The notes beneath the pieces were generated by a model, which did no database searches, was not told the DNA's origin, and worked only from the letters and a program-made list of their open reading frames with translations. From a virus, in the IMG/VR virus record IMGVR_UViG_3300019458_000038, positions 1-59,736 of that record: 59,736 nucleotides of DNA. One strand, written 5' to 3'. Positions 3,525 through 53,150 of this stretch are shown here, in pieces. Each line of letters starts with the position of its first letter. Within the stretch, counting starts at the first letter, position 1. A program made the position numbers and the translations under genes.

Positions 3525-3622
3525 GCGCGGCACTGCGAGGCGAGGCGCGGCGAGGCACGGCACGGCAAGGCAAGGGACGTACCTCAGGGGAGTCGGCCGC
3601 ACGCCGATGATAGACCTGGGAG
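3525..3622 (+). repeat. pentamer-array/hairpin element, copy A
   Basis: Ten GCNNG pentamers (3525-3574) run into GGACGTACC and then a two-stem hairpin: CTCAGG with CCTGGG outside, GTCGGC with GCCGAT inside, with the conserved GATAGA strand between. It is the only plus-strand copy; related copies lie at 41.6, 44.6, 47.0, 50.1, 51.4, 52.4 and 53.1 kb. The outer stem has A-T here where other copies have G-C, a compensatory change. It ends 34 nt before ATG 3657. Confidence 0.8.
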
Positions 3623-3656
3623 AGAATATCAAATAACATTGACTCTGGTGTGAACA

Positions 3657-3785
3657 ATGAACTTTATCAACAAGGTCCGGGCCGTCCTCAAGGTCGCCAC
3701 CGACCTGCTGCTGATAGGTCGCAATAAGGGCTGGTGGTCGCGCAAAGATAGCGCCGGCGAGCTCTTCCGCGACGGGCTCAAGTGA
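3657..3785 (+). CDS. small protein, 42 aa
   Basis: MNFINKVRAVLKVATDLLLI begins an amphipathic to hydrophobic helix followed by a charged tail (NKGWWSRKDSAGELFRDGLK). Its TGA overlaps the ATG of the lipoprotein gene (TGATG). It follows repeat copy A. Likely a short membrane-associated peptide; family unknown. Confidence 0.55.
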   Translation: MNFINKVRAVLKVATDLLLIGRNKGWWSRKDSAGELFRDGLK

Positions 3786-5161
3786 TGGCTGACGACTGGC
3801 GCAGGTTCCGGTTCTTCCTCAAGGTTTTCTTGGGGGCGGCGCTCGCGGCGTCCACGGCGGCGGCGCTGGCATTGCTGCTGGTCGGGTGTTCCAGGAACAC
3901 CCCGCCGAGCCCGCCGTCTCCTCCCCAACTGACGCTGGCGCCGCTGCGGGTAGAGGGCGGGAGCTTCGTGCCTGAGCTCAAGGGGCCGATCTTCTGCTGC
4001 AACGACCCGCGCAACGACACCGCCGGCGGTGGAGACCCACTGGTAGAAGACGAGGGCCTCCGCGACGGTTGGCCTATGGCCAACAAGGAAGCACTGGACC
4101 GCGTAGAGCCGGCGTGCTCCGGAGGCCGCTGCAACTTCGTCCACGTCCGGCCGGGGCCTTACAGTCGCCAGGGCCTGCGCGGCACGAAGTACGAGGGAAA
4201 GGCTGGAGCAGAAGTGCTCCCGCACTTGCGCGCCTTCGCCGTCGAGGCGAACCGCCGGGGGTACTACGTCGAGGTCTCCGTCGTGGACTACTGGACCCAC
4301 GCCTCGCACCCGGACCAGGGTGCCTTCGGTCACGACTGCCGCGTCACGCAGCAGGCCCCAACCCAGGACTACCTTGCGTGGGTCGACGCCCTCGTGTCGA
4401 GCACGTGGGACCTGGAGGTGATCTACAACCTCGGCAACGAAGCGTTCCGGTGCAAGCCCTCGGCCGCCTGGGAGGACGGGCTCGTGGCCCAGATCAGGGC
4501 CACCGAGGCCGCGCGCGGCTCGCGCAGGCACCTGGTCGGCTCGGAGTGGTGGCTCCCGGACGTGAGGACCACCTACGACTACGTCGCCGTCGGGGACGTG
4601 TTCTACTCGACCCCAGCTCCAGGAACGAAGGTCACACAGAGCTACTCCATCACGACCCCGGTGATCCTGGTTGAGGACGACGGCGGGTGGCACCCTCCGT
4701 ACCAGTGGAAGGCCGTGGGGTCGAAGATCGTCTGGCGCGGGATGATGAGCGACGCGGAGTTCCTCGCCGCGCTCCGGGGGGACGGAGACGACCTGAGGTA
4801 CCCGTGTCCGGTGCCAGACCCGGTTTCGAGGATCGCCCTGAGCCTTCACTACGCCCCGAACACGCTCACTGTGGACGGCACCCCGAAGTACGCGTGTCCC
4901 TCAGGTCACTGCGACTACGGCGCGGAGGGCAGCGCCGAGGGCTGGCACCAGCGGGGGGTGTGCGAGTCTGAGCGCGGCTGGCCCTATGCGTGGTACGTTA
5001 ACGGGCGCCGGTGCGACCCGTGGGCCAAGCCGGACTCGTCCTGCTGGAGCACCGGAAACCCACTGGCGGTCTTCGTTTGGCCACCGACGACGCAGGGCTC
5101 CGTGACCGTGTGCGCCCTCGACGGGGCCGGCCCGTGCAGCTCTGCCCTGCTGACGCCCTGA
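3785..5161 (+). CDS. lipoprotein with glycoside-hydrolase-like TIM-barrel features, 458 aa
   Basis: An N-terminal transmembrane stretch ends in LLLVGC, a lipobox with Cys near residue 35, then a Pro-rich linker. The body has NFVHVRPGPY, GYYVEVSVVDYW, VIYNLGNEAF and VILVEDDGG. This looks like the beta-strand series of a GH5-like barrel, with NE as possible acid/base and the later Glu as possible nucleophile. The C-terminus is Cys-rich. ATG 3785 (TGATG overlap) is preferred over GTG 3782. A phage-coded lipoprotein would be exported by the host; it could modify the cell surface or block superinfection (inference). Confidence 0.6.
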   Translation: MADDWRRFRFFLKVFLGAALAASTAAALALLLVGCSRNTPPSPPSPPQLTLAPLRVEGGSFVPELKGPIFCCNDPRNDTAGGGDPLVEDEGLRDGWPMANKEALDRVEPACSGGRCNFVHVRPGPYSRQGLRGTKYEGKAGAEVLPHLRAFAVEANRRGYYVEVSVVDYWTHASHPDQGAFGHDCRVTQQAPTQDYLAWVDALVSSTWDLEVIYNLGNEAFRCKPSAAWEDGLVAQIRATEAARGSRRHLVGSEWWLPDVRTTYDYVAVGDVFYSTPAPGTKVTQSYSITTPVILVEDDGGWHPPYQWKAVGSKIVWRGMMSDAEFLAALRGDGDDLRYPCPVPDPVSRIALSLHYAPNTLTVDGTPKYACPSGHCDYGAEGSAEGWHQRGVCESERGWPYAWYVNGRRCDPWAKPDSSCWSTGNPLAVFVWPPTTQGSVTVCALDGAGPCSSALLTP

Positions 5162-5165
5162 GCCG

Positions 5166-5174
5166 TGCTAGACT
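5166..5174 (+). promoter_or_regulatory. extended -10 promoter TGCTAGACT
   Basis: TGnTAnnnT pattern in the 33-nt gap before GTG 5195, followed by a CGGAGG ribosome-binding site. No clear -35. The same TAGACT hexamer recurs upstream of other genes here. Confidence 0.45.
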
Positions 5175-5194
5175 CTAACTCGGAGGTTTAGAAC

Positions 5195-5470
5195 GTGAGC
5201 AAACTGATCCAGTTGGTCCTTCGGTTCGGTCCCCTTGTCGCCGGCCTCGCCCTCGCCGTTCAAGCCGTCCTGCCTGCCAGCGGGGACGCCATCGCCCAGC
5301 AGGTCGTGAACTTTCTGGGCCTGTTCGGGGCGTCTCCGGACCTGGAGGTCGTGGACGCCATCTCGAAGCTGTCTCAGGCAGCGCTGCTGGCCCTGGGCTA
5401 CTTCCGGAAGCTGGCGAACATCTTCGCCGAGTACTTGGGCAAGGCGCCCTTCTTCGTACCCAGGTCGTAG
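5195..5470 (+). CDS. small hydrophobic protein, 91 aa
   Basis: GTG start with CGGAGG 8 nt upstream. Segments LIQLVLRFGPLVAGLALAV and AALLALGYFRKLANIFAEYL are hydrophobic or amphipathic helices, joined by an acidic stretch (SPDLEVVDAI). The layout would suit a holin-type or membrane-associated protein, and another small membrane protein follows directly. No family recognised. Confidence 0.55.
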   Translation: MSKLIQLVLRFGPLVAGLALAVQAVLPASGDAIAQQVVNFLGLFGASPDLEVVDAISKLSQAALLALGYFRKLANIFAEYLGKAPFFVPRS

Positions 5471-12535: not shown

Positions 12536-15001
12536 TTGCCGTACGAGAGCCAGGGGCAAGACACCGCTCAGTGGGAGTGGGCCACCCCACCCAACGAGAA
12601 GTTTGAGGGTGGGGAGCAAGAGGAGGCGTTCAACTACGGCCCCGCTCCACTCCTGCTGTCTGGAGGCTACGGCAGCGGGAAGACCGCCGTCGCCATCTTC
12701 AAGCTGCTGTGCCTCGCGCAGCTCTACCCAGGGTACAGGGTCGCCATCGCCAGGAGGTTCTGGAGCGAGCTCAAGGAGACCACGCTCCAGACCTTCTACA
12801 CGCTCTGCCCCCCAGAGGCCATAGCCCAGAAGAACGAGGGCGGCGGCGCGGCTGTAGTCACCCTCACCAACGGCTCGCGGTTCGTGTTCCTCCACCTCAA
12901 CCGCGTGGACGCCATCTCCATCCTGCGGGGACTCGAGATCAACGCGGCCCTGATCGACCAGGCCGAGGAGACCGCCGAGGAGATATACGACACCCTCCAC
13001 TCCAGGATAGGGCGGTGGAAGAGCGCCTCCGTCCCCTCGGAGGTGGTGCGGGTCCACGAGGAGTCGACCGGGACTGAGTGGCCGTACAAGTTCCGGAACG
13101 GGAAACTGTCCACGCCTAGCTTCATGCTGCTCACGTGCAACCCAGACCTCGAGACGCACTGGCTGTGGAACCGCTTCCACCCTGAGTCGGAAGAGTGGCA
13201 GTCGAAGTGGAAGGGCAGCGGCTACAAGATGATCACGTTCGACTCGCGGAAGAACAAGTTCTTGAGCGAGGAGAACCTCAGGATCCTCCAGTCCAAGGAC
13301 GACACGTACCAGGCCCGCTACGTCCGCGGAGAGTGGGGCAACCCGGAGGGGGTGTTCTTCCGGGTGCACCCGTCGTCAGTGCTGGAGTACTCCGAAGAGT
13401 TGATGAAGAAGCTGCGCGAGACGTGCAAGCTCTACCGCGTGCTTGACCACGGCGACTCCGGGGTCACGTGCGTGCTGTGGGCGGCGGTCGACGGCGGCGG
13501 CAACGTGATCTTCTACCGTGAGCTCTACTTGGAGGACCAGACCATCAGGGACACCAGGGCCAACGTGTGGAAGATGTCGGTCAAGGACTCAAAGAGCTAC
13601 GACGGCTCCCTCCCGAGGGAGCCAGACAAGTTCGAGCTGACGCACTACCGGAACCTGGCCGACCCGAGCATCTTCTACAAGGTCCCGCAAAAGATCGGAG
13701 GCCGGGTAGTGTCGAACAGGTGGTCCGTGGCCGAGGAGTGGGTCGACTCGAGGAACTACCCGGCGTGGGACAGGGTCTCGTGGGAGGGCGCCGACAACAA
13801 CGAGCAGGTCTCCAGGCAGAGGATCAAGGACATGCTCCTGGTCGACCCTGGACACTCCCACCCGATCACCAGGGAGAAGGGCGCCCCGAGGATGTACTTC
13901 GTGAAGAAGACCCAAGACTACCAGGAGGGGTGCTTCGACGCGCTGCTGGAAGTGAAGTCGGCCAGGAGGGTCCAGGTGGGCACCGTCAACGGGAAGCCGG
14001 TGTTCAGCGACGAGCGCGACGACAGCGTTCCAGACCACGCTTTAGATTGCGTCGCCCCAGAGACGAAGATACTCCGGGGGGACCTGCGGTGGATCAGGGC
14101 AGACGAAGTGAAAGTTGGGGACACACTCGTCGGTTTCGATGAGTTTGGTGACGGGACGCTGAGTCCAAGACACTGGCGTCCTGCTCTCGTCGAGTCCGTA
14201 GAGTTCACGAAGAAGCCCTCGTACAGGACGACGCTCTCCGACGGGACTGTTGTCGTGTCGTCACACGACCACAGGTGGTTGTCAGACCTTCCCAGTGCTA
14301 CTTCATGCAAGAGGAAGTGGGTGTCCACAGCTTCTCTTGACGGAAGGGGACATTGGGAGCCTGGGGTCCCGAGAGGAGCTACTTCCGTCGAGAGGCTCCT
14401 ACTCAAGCCTCTGTCCGTCTGGAAAGAGGGTGACACTCGCTCTCACGGTTACTTAGCTGGGATGTTCGACGGAGAAGGTAGTCTGTCTCAAGGCAAGCTG
14501 AAATACAGGGGGATACGGAACATCTCCATGTCACAGAAAGACAACTCTGCTCTTGAGGACACCATGTCTGCGCTGAGAGCGCTCGGATTCCAGCATTCTC
14601 TGTATAGACACACGAGCAGCCAGCCTGGCGTGTGTACAGTGGTGCTAGCCGGAACTCTGGGCGAACGCCTGCGTTTCCTTGGAGAAGTGCGACCTCGCAG
14701 GCTCTTGGAAAAATTGGACCTGAACGTGGGGAGATTCCAGGTCTGGGGTCAGGACCGAGTGAGCGTCGTGAGGAACGAGTACATCGGAGTCGTAGACGTG
14801 GTCGCGATCAAGACTTCCACTCGAACGTTCATGGCCGAGGGGCTGGCCTCTCACAACTGCGTCCGATACATATCCAACAGCCGGCCCGTCGCGTTCGTCC
14901 CGCCGAAGGACAAGCCGGGGACCCTGACGTGGGCCGGGTACGCCAAGCTCGCCAAGGAGGGGAACCGCAAGCGGCGGAGGAGGGCCGCGACAACGGAGTA
15001 G
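12536..15001 (+). CDS. terL: terminase large subunit interrupted by an intein, 821 aa precursor
   Basis: TTG start with a strong GAGGGGGAAG site. Walker A is GGYGSGKT (residues 43-50); the Walker-B-like strand is AALIDQAEE. The C-terminal RuvC-like nuclease includes RVLDHGDSG and, split by the intein, the motif HALD-CVRY that carries a catalytic Asp. The intein is residues 505-774; after splicing the terminase would be 551 aa, a normal size. It packages DNA into proheads through the portal, two genes downstream. The TTG start may limit its expression. Confidence 0.9.
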   Translation: MPYESQGQDTAQWEWATPPNEKFEGGEQEEAFNYGPAPLLLSGGYGSGKTAVAIFKLLCLAQLYPGYRVAIARRFWSELKETTLQTFYTLCPPEAIAQKNEGGGAAVVTLTNGSRFVFLHLNRVDAISILRGLEINAALIDQAEETAEEIYDTLHSRIGRWKSASVPSEVVRVHEESTGTEWPYKFRNGKLSTPSFMLLTCNPDLETHWLWNRFHPESEEWQSKWKGSGYKMITFDSRKNKFLSEENLRILQSKDDTYQARYVRGEWGNPEGVFFRVHPSSVLEYSEELMKKLRETCKLYRVLDHGDSGVTCVLWAAVDGGGNVIFYRELYLEDQTIRDTRANVWKMSVKDSKSYDGSLPREPDKFELTHYRNLADPSIFYKVPQKIGGRVVSNRWSVAEEWVDSRNYPAWDRVSWEGADNNEQVSRQRIKDMLLVDPGHSHPITREKGAPRMYFVKKTQDYQEGCFDALLEVKSARRVQVGTVNGKPVFSDERDDSVPDHALDCVAPETKILRGDLRWIRADEVKVGDTLVGFDEFGDGTLSPRHWRPALVESVEFTKKPSYRTTLSDGTVVVSSHDHRWLSDLPSATSCKRKWVSTASLDGRGHWEPGVPRGATSVERLLLKPLSVWKEGDTRSHGYLAGMFDGEGSLSQGKLKYRGIRNISMSQKDNSALEDTMSALRALGFQHSLYRHTSSQPGVCTVVLAGTLGERLRFLGEVRPRRLLEKLDLNVGRFQVWGQDRVSVVRNEYIGVVDVVAIKTSTRTFMAEGLASHNCVRYISNSRPVAFVPPKDKPGTLTWAGYAKLAKEGNRKRRRRAATTE
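14048..14857 (+). other. intein with LAGLIDADG-type endonuclease domain, 270 aa
   Basis: Begins at Cys (block A, CVAPETKILRGDL), has a block-B-like SSHDHRWL, a homing endonuclease dodecapeptide (HGYLAGMFDGEGSLS), a block F/G end (FMAEGLASHN) and Cys +1 in the extein. All residues for class 1 splicing are present: Cys1, His-Asn, Cys+1. The insertion is exactly in the HALD/CVRY nuclease motif. Base use is visibly less GC-biased at third positions than in the flanking exteins, a sign of separate origin. Confidence 0.9.
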
Positions 15002-43376: not shown

Positions 43377-43401
43377 GGCTATATTCTCTCCCTCGTTAGT
43401 T

Positions 43402-43475: not shown

Positions 43476-43502
43476 GTACTTTTGTCTCCAGCTTCTCAGG
43501 TT

Positions 43503-43572
43503 CGGAGGGTCGGGGAATCGAACCCCGTTAGACCGCTTAGCAGGCGACCCGCTGTCCAACTGCGCACCCTCC
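43503..43572 (-). tRNA. tRNA-Ser-like (GCT), short body
   Basis: Acceptor GGAGGGT/ACCCTCC, loop CTGCTAA (GCT), perfect T-arm, but only a 4-nt variable loop and a shortened D-arm. G73 is followed by AAC, so CCA is not encoded. Unlike normal bacterial serine tRNAs. Confidence 0.6.
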
Positions 43573-43579
43573 AGTGTGG

Positions 43580-43861
43580 TCAGAACCGCTCCAGCTTCTC
43601 CACGACCCTGAGCTTGTTGTCCCGAGTCCAGGCGAGGCCCCGCCTCACCGTCTTCGTGATGGCCGAACTGGCGGCGCGCCTGCTACTGAAAAACATATTT
43701 GAGCAGGCTTCACTGCCCATTCCTCTCCACAGGCATCCGTCGATCCCCATGTTGAGGGGATGCCCGCCTTCCTCGACAACGACGTAGTACCTCCAGGAGC
43801 GACACTCGCTCTCTTTTGCCCTCAGGGCTTTACGAACGAGTTTCTGTCTCGCCTTGCTCAT
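43580..43861 (-). CDS. hypothetical basic protein, 93 aa
   Basis: MSKARQKLVRKALRAKESEC opens a basic helix; middle HPLNMGIDGCLWRGMGSEAC; end VRRGLAWTRDNKLRVVEKLE. A roughly 40-bp imperfect direct repeat (43712-43756 and 43879-43917) covers its middle and the 3' end of the upstream gene. Unknown function. Confidence 0.5.
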   Translation of the reverse strand: MSKARQKLVRKALRAKESECRSWRYYVVVEEGGHPLNMGIDGCLWRGMGSEACSNMFFSSRRAASSAITKTVRRGLAWTRDNKLRVVEKLERF

Positions 43862-43863
43862 TA

Positions 43864-44277
43864 TCAACCCCCCTTCGTACTGCCCACTCCTCGGGCATCC
43901 GTCGGTCCCCATGTTGAGTGGAGCGTGTTGCGCCATCTGCGTTTCATGAAGACCTCAACTGGCCGTCCCCAAACTGCGGCCCACGCTAGCGTGTTGGCCG
44001 TACCTCCCGAGAGCCCGTCCCAGAAGGCCGTCACCTTGTCGGCCATCCTGGCTATGACCGAGTTCCTGACCTTCGTGGCGATGTGGCCATACGAAGAGTA
44101 GTCGGGAGTCACCACGACCACCTCCAGGCCCCGCTTCCTGGCTGCATCCTCGGCCGCAGCATCGACTCCGCGAGCCCCTCCCGTGACCACCACCGTCTTG
44201 TCCGGTAGGGAGTCGATGTAGTCCTTCACGAGGTCCAGATACTTGAAGTTCCTCGAACCTACTACTGCCACCTTCAC
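43864..44277 (-). CDS. SLOG-family nucleotide-binding protein (DUF2493/YpsA-type), 137 aa
   Basis: GTG 44277 preceded by GGGGAGGTCGGA is preferred over ATG 44325. The fold is clear: VKVAVVGSRNFKYLDLVKDY, TVVVTGGARGVDAAAEDAAR, VVVVTPDYSSYG, VIARMADKVTAFWDG and SGGTANTLAWA. SLOG proteins sense or process nucleotides and nucleic-acid-derived ligands and appear in several conflict systems. Confidence 0.75.
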   Translation of the reverse strand: MKVAVVGSRNFKYLDLVKDYIDSLPDKTVVVTGGARGVDAAAEDAARKRGLEVVVVTPDYSSYGHIATKVRNSVIARMADKVTAFWDGLSGGTANTLAWAAVWGRPVEVFMKRRWRNTLHSTWGPTDARGVGSTKGG

Positions 44278-44391
44278 TCCGACCTCCCCACCGCTGCTAG
44301 CAGGAGGCCCATCCTTCAGCGCCATCCAGACAGCCTTGCGGTGTAGCCTTCAGAACCAAACTCGACCACGTTTTGTCTCCCTCCCAAACAA

Positions 44392-44480
44392 TGGACCACG
44401 GTCGGGGAGTCGAACCCCGTTCTGGCCCCGATCTGGGGGAGCGGTTATAGGCCGCCCTGAGAACCGTCCTCCCACCGTGG
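44392..44480 (-). tRNA. class II tRNA, anticodon TAT (identity uncertain)
   Basis: Acceptor CCACGGT/ACCGTGG, U73, CCA encoded, long variable arm CCCC-AGATC-GGGG, normal T-loop. Best anticodon stem GGCGG/CCGCT gives loop CCTATAA: C33 and anticodon TAT. A TAT isoleucine tRNA with a class II body would be unusual, so identity is left open. Confidence 0.6.
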
Positions 44481-44487
44481 ATGAAAC

Positions 44488-44561
44488 TGGAAGCCCGCCC
44501 CGGAGTCGAACCGAGATGGTCCGGCATTAGAAGTGCCGGCGGTGTCCACCACCAGCGGGCC
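44488..44561 (-). tRNA. tRNA-Arg (TCT)
   Basis: Acceptor GGCCCGC/GCGGGCT, loop CTTCTAA, U73 and CCA encoded. Reads AGA, a rare codon in this GC-rich genome. Confidence 0.85.
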
Positions 44562-44570
44562 TCCGTCACG

Positions 44571-44680
44571 ACCCCCCGGTCTATCATCGGCGTGCGGCCG
44601 ACTCCCCGAGGGTACGTCCCTTGCCTTCCCGCGCCTCGCCTAGCCCAGCCGGGCCGCGCCGCGCCCCGCCTCGCCGGGCC
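44571..44680 (-). repeat. pentamer-array/hairpin element, copy C
   Basis: Twelve NNGCC-like pentamers plus the hairpin core with inner stem GTCGGC-CGCAC-GCCGAT. Stands 9 nt upstream of tRNA-Arg(TCT). Confidence 0.85.
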
Positions 44681-44694
44681 ACGTTGGATGAAGA

Positions 44695-44769
44695 TGGAGC
44701 CCCACCGGGGAGTCGAACCCCGCTTTGCCGGTTTAGGAAACCGGTTCGCGTCCGCCGCGAATGTGGAGC
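44695..44769 (-). tRNA. tRNA-Arg (CCT)
   Basis: Acceptor GCTCCAC/GTGGGGC, D-stem TCGC/GCGA, loop TTCCTAA, U73 and CCA encoded. Confidence 0.9.
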
Positions 44770-44771
44770 TC

Positions 44772-44845
44772 TGGAAGCCGCGGGCAGAGTCGAACTGCCA
44801 TCTCAGGGTTCGTAGCCCTACGCCTTTCCGTTGGACCACGCGGCT
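44772..44845 (-). tRNA. tRNA-Arg (ACG)
   Basis: Acceptor AGCCGCG/CGCGGCT, loop CTACGAA, CCA encoded. A34 would need the host TadA deaminase to read CGC/CGA. Confidence 0.9.
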
Positions 44846-44848
44846 TTG

Positions 44849-44924
44849 TGGACCCCGAGGCGGGACTCGAACCCGCATCTCCAGTTACGGCGTCAGGTTT
44901 CGGAGACCTGGCCGGTACTCGGGG
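44849..44924 (-). tRNA. tRNA-Arg-like (CCG), apparently without a D-arm
   Basis: Acceptor CCCCGAG/CTCGGGG, T-arm GCGGG/CCCGC, U73 and CCA are perfect. The only good anticodon hairpin is CAGGT-CTCCGAA-ACCTG, leaving just 7 nt where the D-arm should be and 17 nt in the variable region. A forced normal layout gives a poor stem. Total length is a normal 76 nt. Confidence 0.55.
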
Positions 44925-45075
44925 AATCGTCCGGATCCGATCCTGACTCTTCGATTATGGCTCTGATTTCCGACCGGGGGCCTTTCCAGCACAACTCCTT
45001 CGCGATCTCAGTGACGGAGTAGCCCCTGTGGTAGAGGTCCAGCACAACGTCTGCCCGAGTGACGTGTTTCCCCAT
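44893..45075 (-). CDS. small HTH-like protein, 60 aa
   Basis: MGKHVTRADVVLDLYHRGYS followed by VTEIAKELCWKGPRSEIRAI looks like a helix-turn-helix of the type that ends small phage regulators. The last residues (about 10) are encoded inside the adjacent tRNA-Arg-like gene. Start ATG 45075. Possible local regulator. Confidence 0.5.
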   Translation of the reverse strand: MGKHVTRADVVLDLYHRGYSVTEIAKELCWKGPRSEIRAIIEESGSDPDDSPSTGQVSET

Positions 45076-45087
45076 CAGAGAGAGTCC

Positions 45088-45261
45088 CTAGACCTTCCGG
45101 CGCTTCCGCTTCGAAGCAGAAACGTTGGCTCTTCGGGCAGCCCTGCGGGCGGCCCACCCGTGGCCCGCTTTAGGACCGCTGCGGCGGTGAAGCTCGCGGA
45201 CGATGCGGAGTTCGCGCTTGCGCTTCTTTCCCTTCCTCTTGTGTGCCCACGCCATCTGCAT
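45088..45261 (-). CDS. very basic small protein, 57 aa
   Basis: MQMAWAHKRKGKKRKRELRI and later RRAARRANVSASKRKRRKV: Lys/Arg-rich throughout, likely RNA- or DNA-binding. ATG 45255 has better spacing to the CAGGAGAG site; 45261 is also possible. It lies between tRNA-Glu and the HTH-like gene. Confidence 0.5.
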   Translation of the reverse strand: MQMAWAHKRKGKKRKRELRIVRELHRRSGPKAGHGWAARRAARRANVSASKRKRRKV

Positions 45262-45272
45262 GCTCTCCTGTT

Positions 45273-45346
45273 TGGTGGGGTCGGCGGGAGTCGAACCCGC
45301 ATCAACTGCGTGAAAGGCAGCCCGCCTACCGTTAGCATACGACCCC
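45273..45346 (-). tRNA. tRNA-Glu (TTC)
   Basis: Acceptor GGGGTCG/CGACCCC, loop CTTTCAC, A73 and CCA encoded. Confidence 0.9.
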
Positions 45347-45351
45347 GTTTC

Positions 45352-45423
45352 TGGAGCCACCCCGGGGAGTCGAACCCCGCTGGCTGAAGATACAAACCTC
45401 CGCCGGTCCCGTGACCGGGTGGC
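45352..45423 (-). tRNA. tRNA-Thr (TGT)
   Basis: Acceptor GCCACCC/GGGTGGC, loop TTTGTAT, U73, CCA encoded; D-stem GGTC/GACC with a short loop. Confidence 0.8.
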
Positions 45424-45443
45424 GTCTTGTCCCCCTTGAGAAG

Positions 45444-45747
45444 TGGTGGAGGCGGCGGGAGTCGAACCCGCGTCCCGACACGAACGACGCGACGAGTTGC
45501 ACAGGCTTGTGTGCGTCAGTTGGCCGTGAGCGTCACCCCTTCACGGCGTTGGGGTACTGGTCCTCGCCGTCGTGACGCCGCTCCAGGCACTAGCGAGGGA
45601 GGAACCTGGGCGACGAGGCCGCCTAGGCGGCCTGCGGCAGAGCGTAGTCTGCGCTTGAGGTTTCCGGTCGAGATTTAGGAGGGAGACTCGGAGCCCCTCC
45701 GCCTGCACGTCACGCCGAAGCGCCCCGGTCGATACCGTTGCGCCCCC
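45444..45747 (-). ncRNA. ssrA: transfer-messenger RNA (tmRNA)
   Basis: The 5' end reads GGGGGCGCAACGGTATCGAC and pairs with CGCCTCC-A-CCA at the 3' end; T-arm GCGGG-TTCGACT-CCCGC follows a GACGCG run typical of tmRNA 3' ends. The tag frame is readable at 45652-45623: ADYALPQAA then TAG, extending the usual ...YALAA proteolysis signal. At 304 nt it is somewhat shorter than typical bacterial tmRNA. It would rescue stalled ribosomes and tag products. Confidence 0.9.
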
Positions 45748-45751
45748 GTAG

Positions 45752-45827
45752 TGGTGCCCCCCCCCGGTGTCGCACCGGGCCCTCTTCGTCTTCAGCGAAG
45801 CGCTTCCACTGGGTTAGCTTGAGGAGC
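45752..45827 (-). tRNA. tRNA-Phe (GAA)
   Basis: Anticodon arm CTTCG-CTGAAGA-CGAAG, D-stem GCT/AGC, A73-CCA encoded. The acceptor 3' strand lies in a run of eight G (minus strand), one fewer than a perfect 7-bp acceptor needs; the T-loop is TGCGACA. Confidence 0.8.
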
Positions 45828-45837
45828 ACTGCGGACT

Positions 45838-46150
45838 TCAGTTCTGGATCGCCTCCTGTCCGGCCTTGGCGATCTGTTCGAGGACCCACAGTTTGCGGCG
45901 CGGTGAGCGGGACGCCCACACTGGGAGATGTGAAGAAGCGCACCATTCTGGGTTGCTCGGCCTCGGTGGGCCGGGCCTTCTCCACGACCCCGAGCACGTA
46001 CTTGAACTCATCACCCGAAATTTTGCGATCGAACCACAGTACCTGGGCTCGGGTACACAAGTAAATGAGTGGGCTGCTACTCAGCAGCGTCGCCCACACG
46101 TCCATCTTCCGGTAGGCGTCGAGCTGCTGCTTGGTCACTTGGGCGTTCAC
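45838..46150 (-). pseudogene. frameshifted small gene
   Basis: GTG 46150 overlaps the upstream stop (GTGA) and has AAGGAGGG. The frame VNAQVTKQQLDAYRKMDVWA ... VRFFTSPSVGVPLT is protein-like, then degenerates into the tRNA and tmRNA genes (open to 45710). A +1 shift near 45905 gives RRKLWVLEQIAKAGQEAIQN and a stop at 45838-45840, a sensible C-terminus. Either a sequence error, a real mutation or a +1 frameshift site. Family unknown. Confidence 0.5.
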
Positions 46151-46341
46151 CACTTCGTGGCCCTCCTTCTCGCGTCCCAGCCTTCGTTCCACGCCTGCCG
46201 TCTGATCTCGTCAAGAGCGGTGATGACCTCCGCACACCACTGGCACACCGGCGCCTGAGAGCCTACCGGGCAGGTACAGCTCGTCCCCCCAAAGCGGCCG
46301 ATGAAGCTCGTGTCCCCGTTGGCCCTCTCGCAGTTACTCAT
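46147..46341 (-). CDS. small Cys-containing protein, 64 aa
   Basis: MSNCERANGDTSFIGRFGGT, then CTCPVGSQAPVCQWCAEVI, a four-Cys zinc knot, and a basic helical end (RRQAWNEGWDARRRATKW). Its stop overlaps the next start. Zinc-type microprotein, unknown role. Confidence 0.6.
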   Translation of the reverse strand: MSNCERANGDTSFIGRFGGTSCTCPVGSQAPVCQWCAEVITALDEIRRQAWNEGWDARRRATKW

Positions 46342-46360
46342 TCCTCCCCCCTCTCGCGTT

Positions 46361-46711
46361 TCAGTCCTGATATTCCGTCAAGGAATACCGCTCGGCGGAG
46401 CTCAGCTTCTTTGCCGGGACGAACCCGATCGTCCTGGTCCTGTTGTCGGTCTTCAGGACCCACGCCAACTCCTGCATGTCCTGGAGGGAGGGCTGCGCGC
46501 TGTCTCTGTAAGCGTTGCAGCTGGTGACCTTGAACCTGATCCGGTCCCCACCGCCGGACAGCCGGTCCCCACCGCCGGACAGAGCGCCGCACTCGATGAT
46601 CTCTTCGTCGAGAGCTTGGCCCCGGATAATCGTCGCCCTCTTGCACGAGAGGCAGAGCGACTTCTCGTCGGAAGACGCGGTGCCACCAAAGACTTTGATA
46701 CTGATCGACAC
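46361..46711 (-). CDS. hypothetical protein with tandem repeat, 116 aa
   Basis: GTG 46711 has AGGAGCTAA upstream. Contains CLSCKRATII and a 21-bp perfect tandem repeat (46541-46561, 46562-46582) encoding LSGGGDR twice. End VLKTDNRTRTIGFVPAKKLS. Unknown family; the repeat suggests slippage. Confidence 0.6.
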   Translation of the reverse strand: MSISIKVFGGTASSDEKSLCLSCKRATIIRGQALDEEIIECGALSGGGDRLSGGGDRIRFKVTSCNAYRDSAQPSLQDMQELAWVLKTDNRTRTIGFVPAKKLSSAERYSLTEYQD

Positions 46712-46726
46712 TTAGCTCCTATTTTG

Positions 46727-46799
46727 TGGAGCCGGCCCGGGGAGTCGAACCCACGCCCTGCTGCTTACGGGGCAGTTTGGCCACCTCGGCCTGACCGGC
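46727..46799 (-). tRNA. tRNA-Thr (CGT), C33 variant
   Basis: Acceptor GCCGGTC/GGCCGGC, loop CCCGTAA gives C33 and anticodon CGT; U73 and CCA encoded. T-stem has two mismatches at the outer end. Confidence 0.75.
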
Positions 46800-46802
46800 G
46801 GT

Positions 46803-46876
46803 TGGTCCACGGAGCGAGAATCGAACTCACATTGCGCGGTTATCGGCCGCGCGTCCTACCTTTGGACGATCCGTGG
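46803..46876 (-). tRNA. tRNA-Ile (GAT), C33 variant
   Basis: Acceptor CCACGGA/TCCGTGG, D-stem GTCC/GGAC, perfect anticodon stem CGCGG/CCGCG with loop CCGATAA (C33), A73 and CCA encoded. Confidence 0.9.
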
Positions 46877-46884
46877 AATCCGTA

Positions 46885-46960
46885 TGGTGGGACCGGTCGG
46901 AATCGAACCGACGTTGTTCCGCTTAAAAGGCGGGCGCAACCCATCTTTTGCTACGGTCCC
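46885..46960 (-). tRNA. tRNA-Lys (TTT)
   Basis: Acceptor GGGACCG/CGGTCCC, loop CTTTTAA, A73 and CCA encoded. Repeat copy D stands 12 nt upstream. Confidence 0.9.
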
Positions 46961-46972
46961 CCGAATTTCCGA

Positions 46973-47071
46973 CCCCCCGGTCTATCATCGGAGTGCGGCC
47001 GACTCCCCGAAGGTACGTCCCTTGCCGTGCCGCGCCTTGCCGAGCTACGCCGAGCCGCGCCCCGCCCCGCC
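46973..47071 (-). repeat. pentamer-array/hairpin element, copy D
   Basis: Ten NNGCC-like pentamers (47022-47071) and the hairpin core with inner stem GTCGG/CCGAT and loop CCGCACT. Upstream of tRNA-Lys(TTT). Confidence 0.85.
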
Positions 47072-47098
47072 ACGGTACGATTGAAAACCTCTGGCAGT

Positions 47099-47172
47099 TG
47101 GCTGGGGGCGGCGGACTCGAACCGCCATGACGCCGGTAACAGCGGCGCATCCTACCATTGAATGATCCCCCA
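47099..47172 (-). tRNA. tRNA-Asn (GTT)
   Basis: Acceptor TGGGGGA/GCCCCCA, loop CTGTTAC, G73 and CCA encoded; last acceptor pair is A-G. Confidence 0.9.
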
Positions 47173-47175
47173 GTT

Positions 47176-47251
47176 TGGCTGCGGCGGAGGGAGTCGAACC
47201 CCCATTGACGTCGGTTCAGAGCCGACCGCACTTCCGTTGTGCTACACCGCA
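47176..47251 (-). tRNA. tRNA-Gln (CTG)
   Basis: Acceptor TGCGGTG/CGCCGCA, loop CTCTGAA, G73 and CCA encoded. Confidence 0.9.
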
Positions 47252-47502
47252 GTAAGGTGTGCGGTTTCTACACGCTGGCCGAGAACTCAGGAGAATGATT
47301 CCTGCACCTCCGGGAGATTCTCACTCCCGCAGGCCATACGTACCGCACGAGGTCGTCTCACTTCATTGACCTAGGAATGAAGCAGGGCGGGGCCGCGGTC
47401 CGGATCCTCGCGCCCTTTGACTGGTAAAGCGCTCCCCGTGTTCGCAGCTTTCAGTCTGGAGCCACCCGCCACGGCTCCACCGCTCAGTGCGTCGTTGGTT
47501 AT
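47252..47502 (-). other. gene-free structured stretch in the tRNA array
   Basis: No ORF or standard tRNA (no TTCGA T-loop). Minus strand shows many helices in series: GGAGCC/GGCTCC, GACTG...AAAGC with GCTTT...CAGTC, AGGGCG/CGCCCT, CTTCATT/AATGAAG, and a cloverleaf-like unit at 47259-47348 closed by GTGCGGT/ACCGCAC with arms GGGAG/CTCCC and CAGGA/TCCTG. Could be a structured ncRNA or decayed tRNAs. Confidence 0.4.
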
Positions 47503-47577
47503 TGGTCGGGCCCACGAGACTCGAACTCGCATTTCCTCGGCCCCCAGCCGAGTGCTCTGCCGTTGAGCTAAGGCCCG
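47503..47577 (-). tRNA. tRNA-Pro (GGG)
   Basis: Acceptor CGGGCCT/GGGCCCG (C1-G72 as in proline tRNAs), D-stem GCTC/GAGC, loop CTGGGGG, A73-CCA encoded. Confidence 0.9.
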
Positions 47578-47578
47578 A

Positions 47579-47652
47579 TGGTCGGGGACAGGAGAGTCGA
47601 ACTCCCGCGACGGCGTTCCAAACGCCGGATGCTTCCGTTACATCAATCCCCG
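47579..47652 (-). tRNA. tRNA-Pro (TGG)
   Basis: Acceptor CGGGGAT/GTCCCCG, loop TTTGGAA, A73-CCA encoded. Confidence 0.9.
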
Positions 47653-47669
47653 GATGCAGACTGAGATTT

Positions 47670-47743
47670 TGGTTGGAGAGGAGGGAGTCGGACCCTCGCC
47701 ACCGGCTTCCGACGCCGGGATGCTACCGTAACACTTCTCCCCA
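47670..47743 (-). tRNA. tRNA-Pro (CGG)
   Basis: Acceptor TGGGGAG/CTCTCCA, anticodon stem CCGGC/GCCGG, loop GTCGGAA, A73-CCA encoded; T-loop TCCGACT. Confidence 0.85.
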
Positions 47744-47744
47744 A

Positions 47745-47818
47745 TGGAGGGTCGCTGGGGACTCGAACCCCACCCGGCAGGGACACAACCTGCCATGCTT
47801 CCTCAACACTCGCGACCC
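47745..47818 (-). tRNA. tRNA-His (GTG)
   Basis: Acceptor GGGTCGC/GCGACCC, loop TTGTGTC, CCA encoded. No G-1 opposite a C73 is apparent (U73), so the usual histidine identity element is not obvious. Confidence 0.85.
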
Positions 47819-47822
47819 AGCG

Positions 47823-47848
47823 GCCCGGAGGCTTGACCATCTCCGGGC
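47823..47848 (-). terminator. strong hairpin between tRNA-Val and tRNA-His
   Basis: GCCCGGAG/CTCCGGGC around a 10-nt loop, no U-run. Possibly a processing or partial termination signal inside the array. The stretch 47849-47974 beside it holds no gene I can support. Confidence 0.35.
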
Positions 47849-47974
47849 TCCTCGTGGCTAATCGGGTGTCGACCCCCGACGTCTCGGCCACAGAGCAGCC
47901 GGCGAGCAGAACGCCGCGCTTGGCATCGCGACGCCTCCGGCCTGCCCTCCGGCTTCTCTCTGACCGAGTTGTGG

Positions 47975-48048
47975 TGGTAGCCGGTGAGGGAATCGAACCC
48001 CCATGAGCGGTTTGTAGGACCGCCGTCCTTCCTTTGAACGAACCGGCT
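47975..48048 (-). tRNA. tRNA-Val (TAC), C33 variant
   Basis: Acceptor AGCCGGT/ACCGGCT, D-stem GTCC-like arm, perfect stem GCGGT/ACCGC with loop CCTACAA (C33), A73-CCA encoded. Confidence 0.9.
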
Positions 48049-48051
48049 CGT

Positions 48052-48129
48052 TGGTCGCAGGGGTGGGATTCGAACCCTACTAGCGCCAGGCTTATGAGAC
48101 CTGCGTTCCTACCAAGGAACTTCCCTGCG
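48052..48129 (-). tRNA. tRNA-Met (CAT)
   Basis: Acceptor CGCAGGG/CCCTGCG, long D-stem GTTCC/GGAAC, loop CTCATAA, A73-CCA encoded. C1 pairs with G72, so not a typical bacterial initiator; could also be a lysidine-type isoleucine tRNA. Confidence 0.8.
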
Positions 48130-48130
48130 A

Positions 48131-48212
48131 TGGGAGCGGACCCGGGAGTCGAACCCGGTATCTTCAGCTTATGAGGCTGACGTGGTTTATGTGTCCGTGC
48201 CCACTCGTCCGC
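48131..48212 (-). tRNA. tRNA-Met-like (CAT), long D-loop
   Basis: Anticodon arm TCAGC-CTCATAA-GCTGA and T-arm CCGGG/CCCGG are perfect. The acceptor gives 6 clean pairs (GCGGAC/GTCCGC), and the D-arm GTGG/CCAC has a 15-nt loop. CCA is encoded after UC. Initiator, elongator or Ile2 cannot be decided. Confidence 0.7.
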
Positions 48213-48215
48213 GTC

Positions 48216-48289
48216 TGGTACCGCCGCCGAGGATCGAACTCGGACCACCGCCTTGAGAGGACGGTCGCCTTCCATTAGCGTACGGCGGC
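48216..48289 (-). tRNA. tRNA-Glu (CTC)
   Basis: Acceptor GCCGCCG/CGGCGGT with G1-U72, D-stem CGC/GCG, loop CTCTCAA, A73-CCA encoded. Confidence 0.85.
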
Positions 48290-48513
48290 TTAGAAAGCCG
48301 GGGCCCTCACCCGGCGGTTGCGACAGGCGGCGGCAGGTAAGCGTTGGGGGTTTCTCACTCCCCGCGGCAGCTCTCTCCGCCCAGGTCTCGGGTCCGGCTG
48401 CGAACGCGACCTCCACCTCGCAGGAGTGGAGAAAGGAGCGGCGGCCTCCTGGCGGGAATTGCGCACCTGCCTTGGAGCCGCACCGGCCAGGTCGCTCGGC
48501 CGCGGTGAAGAAA
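48290..48513 (-). other. gene-free structured stretch between tRNA-Ala and tRNA-Glu
   Basis: No convincing ORF or tRNA. Minus-strand hairpins include CTCCAC/GTGGAG, GCGGGG-AGTGAGAAA-CCCCC and GCCGGG/CCCGGC followed by TTTCT, which resembles a terminator. The loop GAGTGAGAA is shared with the structured stretch at 47.3 kb. Confidence 0.35.
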
Positions 48514-48588
48514 TGGTGGACAGCCGGAGATTCAAACTCCGTCCTAGTGGGTGCAAACCACTCGTGCTCTCGTTAACACTAGCCGCCC
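48514..48588 (-). tRNA. tRNA-Ala (TGC)
   Basis: Acceptor GGGCGGC/GCTGTCC with two G-U pairs, loop TTTGCAC, A73-CCA encoded; T-loop TTTGAAT. Confidence 0.85.
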
Positions 48589-48607
48589 AGTACAGTCGGT
48601 ACCACTT

Positions 48608-48686
48608 TGGCGGGGACGACGGGACTCGAACCCGCGCCCTCTGCGCTGACAACGCAGTGATCCTAGCCCGCAGGATCTACGTCCCC
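48608..48686 (-). tRNA. tRNA-Asp (GTC)
   Basis: Acceptor GGGGACG/CGTCCCC, extended D-stem GATCC/GGATC, loop TTGTCAG, G73-CCA encoded. Confidence 0.9.
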
Positions 48687-48693
48687 TCCAGAG

Positions 48694-48769
48694 TGGTCCA
48701 TCCCCAGGGATTCGAACCCTGATCTCACGGGATTGAGCCGTGCGCGTCTGCCATTTGCGCCAGGGATGG
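48694..48769 (-). tRNA. tRNA-Leu (CAA), short variable loop
   Basis: Acceptor CCATCCC/GGGATGG, leucine-like D-loop (AAATGGCAGA), stem CACGG/CCGTG with loop CTCAATC, A73-CCA. The variable loop is only 4-5 nt instead of the long class II arm. Confidence 0.8.
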
Positions 48770-48771
48770 TA

Positions 48772-48848
48772 TGGTCGCCGCCGTGGGAGTCGAACCCACG
48801 CTTGACCCGTGTTTAAGACGGGGCCTCTGCCATCTGGGCTAGGCGGCG
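48772..48848 (-). tRNA. tRNA-Leu (TAA), short variable loop
   Basis: Acceptor CGCCGCC/GGCGGCG, D-loop with GATGGCAGA, stem CCCGT/ACGGG with loop CTTAAAC, A73-CCA; variable loop about 6 nt. Confidence 0.8.
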
Positions 48849-48850
48849 AG

Positions 48851-48928
48851 TGGTGCGCGGAGTGGGAGTCGAACCCACAGACCACTGCTTCTAAGGCAGT
48901 GAGGTTTGCCAGTTACCGTCACCCGCGC
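48851..48928 (-). tRNA. tRNA-Leu (TAG), short variable loop
   Basis: Acceptor GCGCGGG/TCCGCGC, D-loop with ACTGGCAA, stem ACTGC/GCAGT with loop CTTAGAA, A73-CCA; variable loop GGTCT. The 138 nt upstream (48929-49066) hold no supported gene. Confidence 0.8.
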
Positions 48929-49066
48929 GCGTCTTAGTTAACAGCGAGCGCCGGACCAACAGCCCCAGGAAGTCGAAGGCCAGCTCGCCGTTCGTCTCAA
49001 TTAACTCCTGCCCTTCCGTTTAAAGGTGTAGCGCCGTGGGTCCGGTACAGCGCCCTCGACTTTTAA

Positions 49067-49327
49067 CTAGCGACAGCCCCGCTCTTCTCTGGCGTCGGAC
49101 CTGCCCGACTCCTCGTACAACCACTTCTTTAGGTACACGTGGACCGGGTGTCCCGTCTTGCGGCGGTGCTCCCTGGCGGCCGCGGACACGATGTCCCTGT
49201 CTCTGGAGTACGACGCGTACTCCCTGTCCGGGTGTTTGTCCCTGGTCAGCCAGCAGTATGCACACTCGTACACGTACTCGTCGTATAGGCTCTCGAGGTC
49301 CATGTCCTTCGTCGGGTCCATTCTCAT
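49067..49327 (-). CDS. charged CxxC protein, 86 aa
   Basis: ATG 49327; MRMDPTKDMDLESLYDEYVY, then ECAYCWLTRDKHPDREYASY, SAAAREHRRKTGHPVHVY and a basic end. CxxC with nearby His could bind zinc. Sits between leucine tRNAs. Unknown family. Confidence 0.55.
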   Translation of the reverse strand: MRMDPTKDMDLESLYDEYVYECAYCWLTRDKHPDREYASYSRDRDIVSAAAREHRRKTGHPVHVYLKKWLYEESGRSDAREERGCR

Positions 49328-49343
49328 CTCTCGTTTCTGAATT

Positions 49344-49422
49344 TGGTCCCCAGGGGGCGACTCGAACGCCCACCTTCGCCGGGTCTGAGCCGACGCTCTC
49401 TGCCTGATTGGAGTACCTGGGG
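49344..49422 (-). tRNA. tRNA-Leu (CAG), short variable loop
   Basis: Acceptor CCCCAGG/CCTGGGG, D-stem CTC/GAG with leucine-like loop, stem GTCGG/CCGGC with loop CTCAGAC, A73-CCA; 6-nt variable loop. Confidence 0.8.
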
Positions 49423-49424
49423 GA

Positions 49425-49501
49425 TGGTCTGCCCGGGGGGACTCGAACCCCTATTAGCCTGGCTTCTCGGACCAGGGTGTCTGCCATTCCACCACGAGCA
49501 G
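49425..49501 (-). tRNA. tRNA-Leu (GAG), C33 and short variable loop
   Basis: Acceptor CTGCTCG/CGGGCAG, stem CTGGT/GCCAG with loop CCGAGAA (C33), A73-CCA; variable loop about 6 nt. Confidence 0.8.
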
Positions 49502-49502
49502 A

Positions 49503-49578
49503 TGGTCCACCGCCGGGGGCTCGAACCCCGACCTCTCGCGTTAAGAGCGCGACGTGCTGCCGCTAGCACCTGCGGTGG
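49503..49578 (-). tRNA. tRNA-Lys (CTT)
   Basis: Acceptor CCACCGC/GCGGTGG, D-stem GTGC/GCAC, loop CTCTTAA, A73-CCA encoded. Confidence 0.9.
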
Positions 49579-49583
49579 TTTAG

Positions 49584-49657
49584 TGGAGCTCTCACCGGGT
49601 CCTGCCCCGGACTTTCGCCTTACCAAGGCGACGGTCTGCTGTTGATCCTACGAGAGC
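49584..49657 (-). tRNA. tRNA-Thr (GGT), unusual T-loop
   Basis: Acceptor GCTCTCG/TGAGAGC, perfect stem TCGCC/GGCGA with loop TTGGTAA, U73-CCA. The T-arm reads CCGGG-GCAGGA-CCCGG and lacks the TTCGA motif. The 95 nt upstream (49658-49752) contain two palindromic hairpins but no gene. Confidence 0.75.
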
Positions 49658-49752
49658 GAGTAGCCAGCGGCACTCGCCCTAGGACGAGCCCGCACCTGCG
49701 CGCGGTTCCTGGCCCGGGCCAGGCGCCTCTCAGCCCTGCTGGATGGGCTGCT

Positions 49753-49827
49753 TGGAGCGACGCCGGGGAGTCGAACCCCGCGTTCCCAGTTTGGAAGACT
49801 GGAGCCTTACCGCCCGGCCCGCGTCGC
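49753..49827 (-). tRNA. tRNA-Gly (TCC)
   Basis: Acceptor GCGACGC/GCGTCGC, D-stem GCC/GGC, loop CTTCCAA, U73-CCA encoded. Confidence 0.9.
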
Positions 49828-49833
49828 ATTAGT

Positions 49834-49926
49834 TGGTGGGCGCCGCAGGGATCGAACCTGCCGTGATCCCCCATCAGGGGGCGCCTGGTTTACAGCCAGG
49901 TGGGACTCCTTTGTCCCGTGACGCCC
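49834..49926 (-). tRNA. tRNA-Tyr (GTA)
   Basis: Class II: acceptor GGGCGTC/GGCGCCC, stem CCTGG/CCAGG with loop CTGTAAA, long variable arm CCCCC-TGAT-GGGGG, A73-CCA. Confidence 0.9.
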
Positions 49927-50056
49927 TTGAGCAGCGCTCCACACTAGCGCCGCCTTTTCTTCTTCGCTCAGTTTTCAAAGATGTCCCCCGGCCACGCCTG
50001 GTGCCGGCTCCAGCTTCCGGCCGGCTCTCGGCAGATTCAATACCGCCGAGCCACGA

Positions 50057-50168
50057 CCCCTCGGTCTATCATCGGCCGCGCCGACTCCCCGAAGGTACGT
50101 CCCTTGCCTTGCCGGGCCATGCCTCGCCTAGCCACGCCTCGCCCCGCCCCGCCTGGCTCTGCCTCGCT
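50057..50168 (-). repeat. pentamer-array/hairpin element, copy E
   Basis: About thirteen NNGCC-like pentamers (50104-50168) and the hairpin core; the inner loop is one base shorter than in copies B and H. The core lies 130 nt upstream of tRNA-Tyr and the array 22 nt downstream of tRNA-Trp. The rest of the gap (49927-50056) holds no gene I can support. Confidence 0.85.
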
Positions 50169-50189
50169 ACGCGATTGAGTCTTTCCAGT

Positions 50190-50263
50190 TGGCGGGGGAC
50201 CTGGGGGTCGAACCCAGACTGAGGGATTTGGAGGCCCTCCGGCTGCCGTTACCTCAGCCCCCC
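50190..50263 (-). tRNA. tRNA-Trp (CCA)
   Basis: First tRNA after the array promoter. Acceptor GGGGGGC/GTCCCCC, loop CTCCAAA (closing pair C-U mismatched), G73 and CCA encoded. Confidence 0.85.
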
Positions 50264-51282: not shown

Positions 51283-51310
51283 CTCATCCCTCCCGTCAAG
51301 AACCTAGTTT

Positions 51311-51430
51311 CCCTCGGTCAATAATCAGTCCCGCGTCGGACCGACTCCCCGAGGGTACGTCCCTTGCCTTGCCGTGCCGTGCCGTGCCGTGCCTCGCCGC
51401 GCCGTGCCTCGCCACGCCGTGCACTGCCGC
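51311..51430 (-). repeat. pentamer-array/hairpin element, copy F
   Basis: About thirteen NNGCC-like pentamers (51364-51429) plus a diverged core: outer CTCGG/CCGAG kept, inner stem changed around GTCGGTCCGAC. It is followed upstream by CCGCGGTTACGAAA, also found beside copy G. Confidence 0.75.
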
Positions 51431-51459
51431 GGTTACGAAAACTTGTTCTGCCACCCTGT

Positions 51460-52079: not shown

Positions 52080-52388
52080 GCGCCGACCTTCCTCCGACCC
52101 TTCTCGATGTACCGGATGGCCACGTAGTGCCCGAGCAGAGACCCCAGCACCGTGAAGGTCGTGTAGAACGCACCGAGCCCGACGGCAGGCCAGAGCGTGG
52201 CCGCCTTCATGGCCGACACGATACTTTCGATTAGGAAAAATTGACTCAGGATCCACACCCCGTTGGAGCCGACCGCCGCCACCGCGTGCCACGCGTAGCT
52301 ACCGGAGTTCCTGGCCCTGCTGACCAGGGTGAAAGACAAGTTCTGCGTCAACAAGATCGCTGCCCACAGCCCACACCGCCCACTTCAT
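52076..52388 (-). CDS. membrane protein with a 7-bp duplication near its start
   Basis: The body (NLSFTLVSRARNSGSYAWHA, AVGSNGVWILSQFFLIES, LWPAVGLGAFYTTFTVLGSL) has two to three membrane spans. ATG 52388 has a good GGGAGG site but is out of frame because GCCCACA (plus strand) is repeated at 52362-52368 and 52369-52375; removing one copy gives MKWAVWAAILLTQNLS. TTG 52354 may serve as a substitute start. Confidence 0.55.
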
Positions 52389-52396
52389 AGCCGAAC

Positions 52397-52443
52397 CTCC
52401 CTTTGCCTTGCCAATCCTCGCCGAGCCAAGCCGCGCAATGCCG
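52397..52443 (-). repeat. pentamer-array element, copy G (core lost)
   Basis: About nine NNGCC-like pentamers without the hairpin core, flanked by the same CCGCGGTTACGAAA as copy F. A degraded copy. Confidence 0.65.
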
Positions 52444-52446
52444 CGG

Positions 52447-53016
52447 TTACGAAATCTCCTTGAATTTGACCAGTACGAAAGTCCCGAAGAATGGCCGGAA
52501 CGTCCCCAGGCCGATCTTCTGGGCCAGCTCGAAGACGTTCTTCAGTGTGTCGTAGGAGACGTCGGGGTGCTTGGTCCAGCCGATCTCGAAGTCGATCGCC
52601 CACGGAAGCCTGACGAACGGCCGCTCCTTGGGGACGGGGACTCCGTTCTTTACTCTGGCTACGTCGCGCCGGACTCCGAACTGACCATCGAACTTCCCGG
52701 CCCAGACGAGGGGCTTGTCGCCCTCCCCCAGCAGCGGGATGTCGGCCGGCGTGATCTCCAGGTTCGACCCCAGGGCCTGACCGACCTGTCGTCCGCTCCG
52801 GCCCATCAGGAGCTTGCATACAGACTTGGTGTTCTCTGCGGATAACATTGAATTCAAGTTGAACGCCGGGATCACCAGAGTCTTGCCGTCAGGACCAAAG
52901 TAGAACTTGTCCTGCGCCGGAAGCTTCGTCTTGTTGTCTCCGGCGTACCGGTCGAACAGGATCGGCTTGTTGCCCTCGAACCGTACCGCGTACTTCTTGG
53001 AGTCGTTACTCATCAC
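52447..53016 (-). CDS. conserved hypothetical phage protein, 189 aa
   Basis: GTG 53016 or ATG 53013, preceded by a GA dinucleotide tract (53020-53036) that supplies the Shine-Dalgarno. Sequence YAVRFEGNKPILFDRYAGDN, LVIPAFNLNSMLSAEN, FVRLPWAIDFEIGWTK and an end IGLGTFRPFFGTFVLVKF. The GxGxxRPxFGxF end recalls a glycine loop seen in RAMP-like and other phage proteins, but I do not assign a function. Confidence 0.65.
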   Translation of the reverse strand: MMSNDSKKYAVRFEGNKPILFDRYAGDNKTKLPAQDKFYFGPDGKTLVIPAFNLNSMLSAENTKSVCKLLMGRSGRQVGQALGSNLEITPADIPLLGEGDKPLVWAGKFDGQFGVRRDVARVKNGVPVPKERPFVRLPWAIDFEIGWTKHPDVSYDTLKNVFELAQKIGLGTFRPFFGTFVLVKFKEIS

Positions 53017-53045
53017 ATACTCTCTCTCTCTCTCTCAAATCCATA

Positions 53046-53150
53046 ACCCCCTCGGTCTATCATCGGCTCGCGCCGACTCCCCGAGGGTACGTCCCTTGCC
53101 TTGCCACGCCGAGCCACGCCTCGCCAAGCCTTGCCACGCCTAGCCGCGAT
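53046..53150 (-). repeat. pentamer-array/hairpin element, copy H
   Basis: Eleven pentamers (53096-53150) and a full core: CCCTCGG/CCGAGGG, GTCGGC-GCGA-GCCGAT, GATAGA. Best-formed copy, 30 nt upstream of the start region at 53016. Confidence 0.85.

Follow-up and report, generated by a model that had tools for sequence, protein, structure and literature searches.

The dispersed repeat elements of this phage are very probably (about 0.95) guide RNAs (vrRNAs) of a VIPR system that the phage encodes, a class first described in an April 2026 preprint (PMC13142463). VIPR consists of a phage-encoded RAMP protein of ~20 kDa, Vipr, together with vrRNAs. Each vrRNA has 9-16 YNNGG units, in which GGY is constant and NN variable, and ends in a structured 3' tail that does not vary. 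The NN pairs determine which double-stranded DNA is recognised, one target base being passed over from each pair to the next; the SUSP1 vrRNAs act in trans as guides, and the published targets are mostly satellites and prophages (PMC13142463). We base the identification on the anatomy of the elements and the structure of their tail, on a vipr gene in the same stretch of DNA whose product is homologous to SUSP1 Vipr and has a predicted RAMP-type fold, and on the linkage of vipr to such arrays in other phages. The original prediction, which knew of no such family, was fair on this point: the class is recent and absent from Rfam 15, against which the element has no match at gathering score.

Repeat tracts and copies of the element

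In the window, by which we mean the whole stretch of 59,736 nucleotides analysed (IMGVR_UViG_3300019458_000038), the core GGACGTACC is found exactly in seven copies, at 3575 on the plus strand and at 41614, 44619, 47020, 50102, 51362 and 53094 on the minus strand, and an eighth tract (52403-52442, minus strand) has the array without tail and core. All seven full copies and the tail-less one are thus where the original prediction had put them, on the strands it gave, and their reading direction, toward the next gene or tRNA, is likewise as proposed. The arrays consist of 10-14 GGCNN units, a few of them imperfect; a 31-base pentamer pattern has 11 matches in the window versus 0 expected from 100 shuffles. 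The same virus is represented by a second contig of 76,323 nt (IMGVR_UViG_3300019487_000028; 99.9% identity across the whole window), which carries all the window copies and two extra full copies, X and Y; the count for the virus is therefore at least nine full copies, besides the tail-less tract. With 10-14 units in each of nine copies, and an invariable structured 3' tail, the elements agree with the published anatomy of vrRNAs. The features are as follows.

3524-3573, plus: vrRNA A repeat tract, 10 units
3574-3624, plus: vrRNA A 3' tail, outer stem with two compensatory changes
41128-50263, minus: cluster of 33 tRNA genes and one tmRNA, containing vrRNAs B-E
41565-41615, minus: vrRNA B 3' tail
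41616-41670, minus: vrRNA B repeat tract, 11 units; flanked by tRNA-Ser and tRNA-Cys
44570-44620, minus: vrRNA C 3' tail; tRNA-Arg(tct) starts ~10 nt after it
44621-44680, minus: vrRNA C repeat tract, 12 units; tRNA-Arg(cct) 14 nt before it
46971-47021, minus: vrRNA D 3' tail; tRNA-Lys starts ~12 nt after it
47022-47071, minus: vrRNA D repeat tract, 10 units; tRNA-Asn 27 nt before it
50055-50103, minus: vrRNA E 3' tail
50104-50173, minus: vrRNA E repeat tract, at most 14 units, the outermost imperfect; flanked by tRNA-Trp and tRNA-Tyr
51308-51363, minus: vrRNA F 3' tail, inner stem longer
51364-51428, minus: vrRNA F repeat tract, 13 units
52403-52442, minus: tail-less repeat tract, 8 units, some imperfect; directly behind vipr
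52447-53013, minus: vipr, RAMP-type protein of 188 aa (ATG at 53013, stop at 52447; HMM and PDB 36pp matches, predicted Cas7-type fold)
53046-53095, minus: vrRNA H 3' tail
53096-53145, minus: vrRNA H repeat tract, 10 units; directly ahead of vipr
53417-54574, minus: exonuclease-like gene (phrog_7339) upstream of vipr, a candidate accessory (vap) gene only

Two of the tracts differ by one base between the two near-identical genomes: in copy C (44621-44680) a scaffold GGC is changed to GGG, and in copy H (53096-53145) the difference lies in a variable NN (TA/GA). A further 13 listed mismatches in copy B are very likely due to repeat misregistration and were left out of the genome comparison. Copy F and the tail-less tract have a leader in common, TTTCGTAACCGC (in the regions 51428-51445 and 52403-52460, respectively), and that of the tail-less tract overlaps the vipr stop codon.

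The vipr gene

Proteins encoded beside arrays in other contigs have a motif in common in their N-terminal region, and an HMM built from forty of these array neighbours matches one ORF in the window (52450-53034, minus strand; E=5.6e-26), that of the vipr gene directly behind copy H. The same HMM finds SUSP1 Vipr, a positive control left out of HMM building, with E=1.4e-53, and tracts flank the SUSP1 vipr gene on both sides. A second profile, A1, made from the window protein and five relatives that are 37-39% identical, has a single PDB sequence match, 36pp, entitled 'SUSP1 Vipr protein' (E=6.3e-7). The predicted structure of the window Vipr (pLDDT 83.7) matches 43 PDB chains in Foldseek at E<=0.001, and the matches listed are class 1 CRISPR effector subunits (Csm, Cmr, type VII), which points to a Cas7-type RAMP fold. 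In PHROGs the family is phrog_4652, of unknown function, and no match to Vipr was found in Pfam, NCBIfam or PADLOC.

In a phylogeny of the family the window Vipr falls in a 71-member clade (support 100/99) separate from SUSP1. We rejected membership of the SUSP1 clade (type II) for this system on the basis of this separation and of the nested-hairpin tail of its guides. Viprs from loci with tRNA-like tails (see below) score high by E-value as candidates for its closest relatives, but the tree does not resolve the place of the window Vipr inside the clade, and we did not accept them as such.

Linkage of vipr to arrays in other phages

With the Vipr alignment as query, 160 relatives were found in viral contigs; 80 loci were kept, one of them from this virus. 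Tracts of at least seven units are present in 76 of the 80, with 180 tracts on the vipr strand and none on the opposite strand, while 14 contigs fetched for an unrelated pattern match contained no tracts. Most of the 80 loci are independent; the few exceptions stem from the query alignment, five of whose six sequences had been taken from contigs with arrays. A control with reversed tract sequences was left out, since reversal preserves the 5-base period and makes the control unsound. When viral contigs were instead searched for eight GGCNN units, at least 120 stretches were recovered. Their G+C content varies widely, and in many cases multiple arrays precede genes. A simple sequence pattern is enough to find the arrays, and guide sets and their targets could therefore be collected from metagenomes.

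At four loci (L168, L171, L173 and L177) the tracts are 24-53 units long, beyond the published 9-16; these are perhaps the staggered overlapping guides named in PMC13142463. In 15 loci (L165-L169, L171-L173, L176-L181 and L184) vipr is immediately preceded by a small MUG113/T5orf172 (GIY-YIG-like) gene, which is a candidate accessory nuclease of these close relatives; the T5orf172 gene is absent from the 76-kb contig of this virus.

Structure of the 3' tail

A count over the nine tails finds 98.3% of cells paired in the nested hairpin, compared with 22-60% in slid controls, and three pairs are changed on both sides, a result equalled by one of 500 shuffles. Two of these compensatory pairs are in the outer stem of copy A and the third is in the inner stem of copy F; because two of the three double-sided changes sit in copy A, the covariation is real but thin. 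Both the nested hairpin and the compensatory changes in the outer stem of copy A had been put forward in the original prediction, and both hold up. Its finer details fare less evenly: the GNRA loop, described as frequent, is limited to copies B, H, X and Y (GCGA) and absent from the others, and the internal loop likened to a kink-turn does have GGA opposite GAUAGA (in F, UAUUGA opposite GGA), with GA conserved, but by inspection does not match the canonical kink-turn consensus.

A covariance model of the tail, the check originally suggested, was built and searched; although the search also covered ~1.7 Mb of DNA from other phages, among it the 79 remaining loci with a related Vipr, the model matched the nine elements of this virus only. 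Among the viruses examined, the hairpin tail is private to this virus. Inspection did not support reading it as a tRNA-like tail or as a pseudoknot of the SUSP1 type.

Scattered guides and the tRNA cluster

In the 79 other loci, in which up to 6 kb of flank on each side was covered, 175 of the 176 tracts are at most 1,000 nt from vipr, the one exception being 1,003 nt away. In this virus full elements are found up to ~68 kb from the gene (contig positions 7,448 to 75,793): around vipr there are one full guide and one tail-less tract, and the other eight guides are 1.7 kb to ~68 kb away. Four of the nine (B-E) have a same-strand tRNA on either side, with gaps before and after of 14 and 10 nt for C and of 27 and 12 nt for D. 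As these guides stand between same-strand tRNAs, two of them with gaps of 10-27 nt, tRNA-processing enzymes may free them. The simplest reading is that guides B-E would be transcribed together with the tRNAs and released by tRNA maturation, presumably through RNase P at the downstream tRNA and 3' processing of the upstream one. The main text of PMC13142463 does not mention tRNA, and distant guides, guides between tRNAs and tRNA-like tails are likewise absent from that main text. The layout, scattered and partly tRNA-embedded, and the tail type are new variants of VIPR.

A second kind of association with tRNAs appears in other phages. A six-pair acceptor-like stem followed by a T-arm with a TTCGANN loop is present behind 11 of 598 tracts, versus 2 of 11,960 random windows. 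The loci concerned (L028, L042, L114, L164, L165 and L166/L167) represent about six phages; L166/L167 is a weaker case, as the folding program prefers another structure, and in L165 the acceptor stem is changed on both sides (CGTGAC/GTCACG to CGTGAT/ATCACG). One processing step may be reached in two ways, by embedding among tRNAs or by a tRNA-like tail. That phages mature VIPR guides via the host tRNA-processing machinery, with guides placed between real tRNAs in this phage or with tails that copy the acceptor stem and T-arm in about six others, is a tentative proposal to which we would give slightly less than even odds, and the tRNA link is at once the most interesting and the least proven part of this analysis. 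Layout and tRNA-like tails together suggest how guides might be excised where there is no Cas6-like cutter. If true, the arrangement would be nature's equivalent of engineered tRNA-gRNA arrays, with guides uncoupled from the vipr locus.

Proposed function and alternative explanations

By analogy with the published system, the GGC triplets would form a scaffold held by copies of Vipr, the NN dinucleotides would spell a DNA target read as NN-x-NN-x, with one base skipped, and the constant hairpin tail would cap the 3' end of the guide. Complexes of Vipr and vrRNA would then bind matching double-stranded DNA and repress it, the likely targets being competitors, namely rival phages, satellites or prophages (PMC13142463).

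Searches for exact one-base-skip targets found none for C, D or E in viral contigs and none for E in genomes. Single matches to X (viral contigs) and to C (genomes) were rejected as targets, since both are no more than chance would give and neither continues cleanly past the units used as query. With all fetched tracts compared to the loci at up to two mismatches, a one-base skip gave 16 windows with hits, two of which are the chance-level X and C loci; this comparison carries no signal, because the controls gave 8 (shuffled units), 11 (0-skip) and 15 (2-skip). In a codon-phase test the NN letters agreed best with codon positions 1-2 in sense orientation (log-likelihood -219.7, versus -228.5 for antisense and -235.8 for background), a result to which we give little weight because the list lacks CT and CG and composition bias may explain the fit.

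One variant of the VIPR reading would have the guides aimed at the phage's own genes or those of its host, in regulation or host takeover, and not at rivals. The position of guides inside the phage's own tRNA cluster would suit this, as would the failure of the searches to find a rival target; however, the phage's own 76 kb contains no one-base-skip match and published targets are mostly satellites and prophages (PMC13142463), and we consider the variant unlikely.

Outside VIPR, two explanations derive from the original prediction. An RNA control or processing element was proposed, and in part this stands, since the element is a structured RNA and probably processed. That it acts in cis on its own transcript, with no trans guide role, is very improbable: every copy does have a gene or tRNA downstream of it, and the tail is structured, but variable NN beside constant GGC has no evident role in cis, arrays in other phages track vipr and not particular downstream genes, and the SUSP1 vrRNAs are trans-acting guides (PMC13142463). 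Nine similar copies with a constant tail, dispersed in one genome, might also recall a mobile MITE-like repeat spreading in the phage, an idea that we regard as more improbable still, given that the units differ at the NN positions in a patterned way, that linkage to vipr elsewhere is independent of position, and that the tail occurs in no other virus examined. The mobile repeat of the original prediction is therefore not borne out: the element is a guide RNA with its protein gene in the same window, and although homologues did place it in a known class, as had been allowed for, that class is no transposon.

Other features of the window

The terminase large subunit ORF (12536-15001, plus strand) has a C-terminal part with a weak match to HNH endonucleases, perhaps an inserted homing element or intein. 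A match to the beta-glucosyl-HMC-alpha-glucosyltransferase family at 57298-58197 (minus strand) hints at modified DNA bases. Within predicted genes there is a duplicated stretch (29524-29722 and 30510-30708; 82-84% identity, 986 nt apart).

Comparison with known systems

The closest known system is the SUSP1 (type II) VIPR (PMC13142463, PDB 36pp), which is likewise phage-encoded, with a homologous Vipr, GGY/NN tracts of the same length range, a constant structured 3' tail and one guide directly ahead of vipr. The window system differs in that its Vipr belongs to another clade, its guides are scattered to ~68 kb and partly lie in a tRNA cluster, its tail is a nested hairpin where that of SUSP1 is a pseudoknot, and its vap gene is a candidate only. 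The likeness to the RAMPs of class 1 CRISPR-Cas systems (Cas7/Csm3/Cmr) lies in the predicted fold of Vipr; unlike these systems, VIPR has no CRISPR array, and its guide takes the form of a gapped pentamer code where theirs is a contiguous spacer. Engineered polycistronic tRNA-gRNA arrays (e.g. PMC4982333) likewise place guides between tRNAs for release by tRNA enzymes, whereas the arrangement in this phage is natural and its processing is presumed. VIPR is only months old in the literature, and the member found in this phage has a guide layout and a type of tail that are new.
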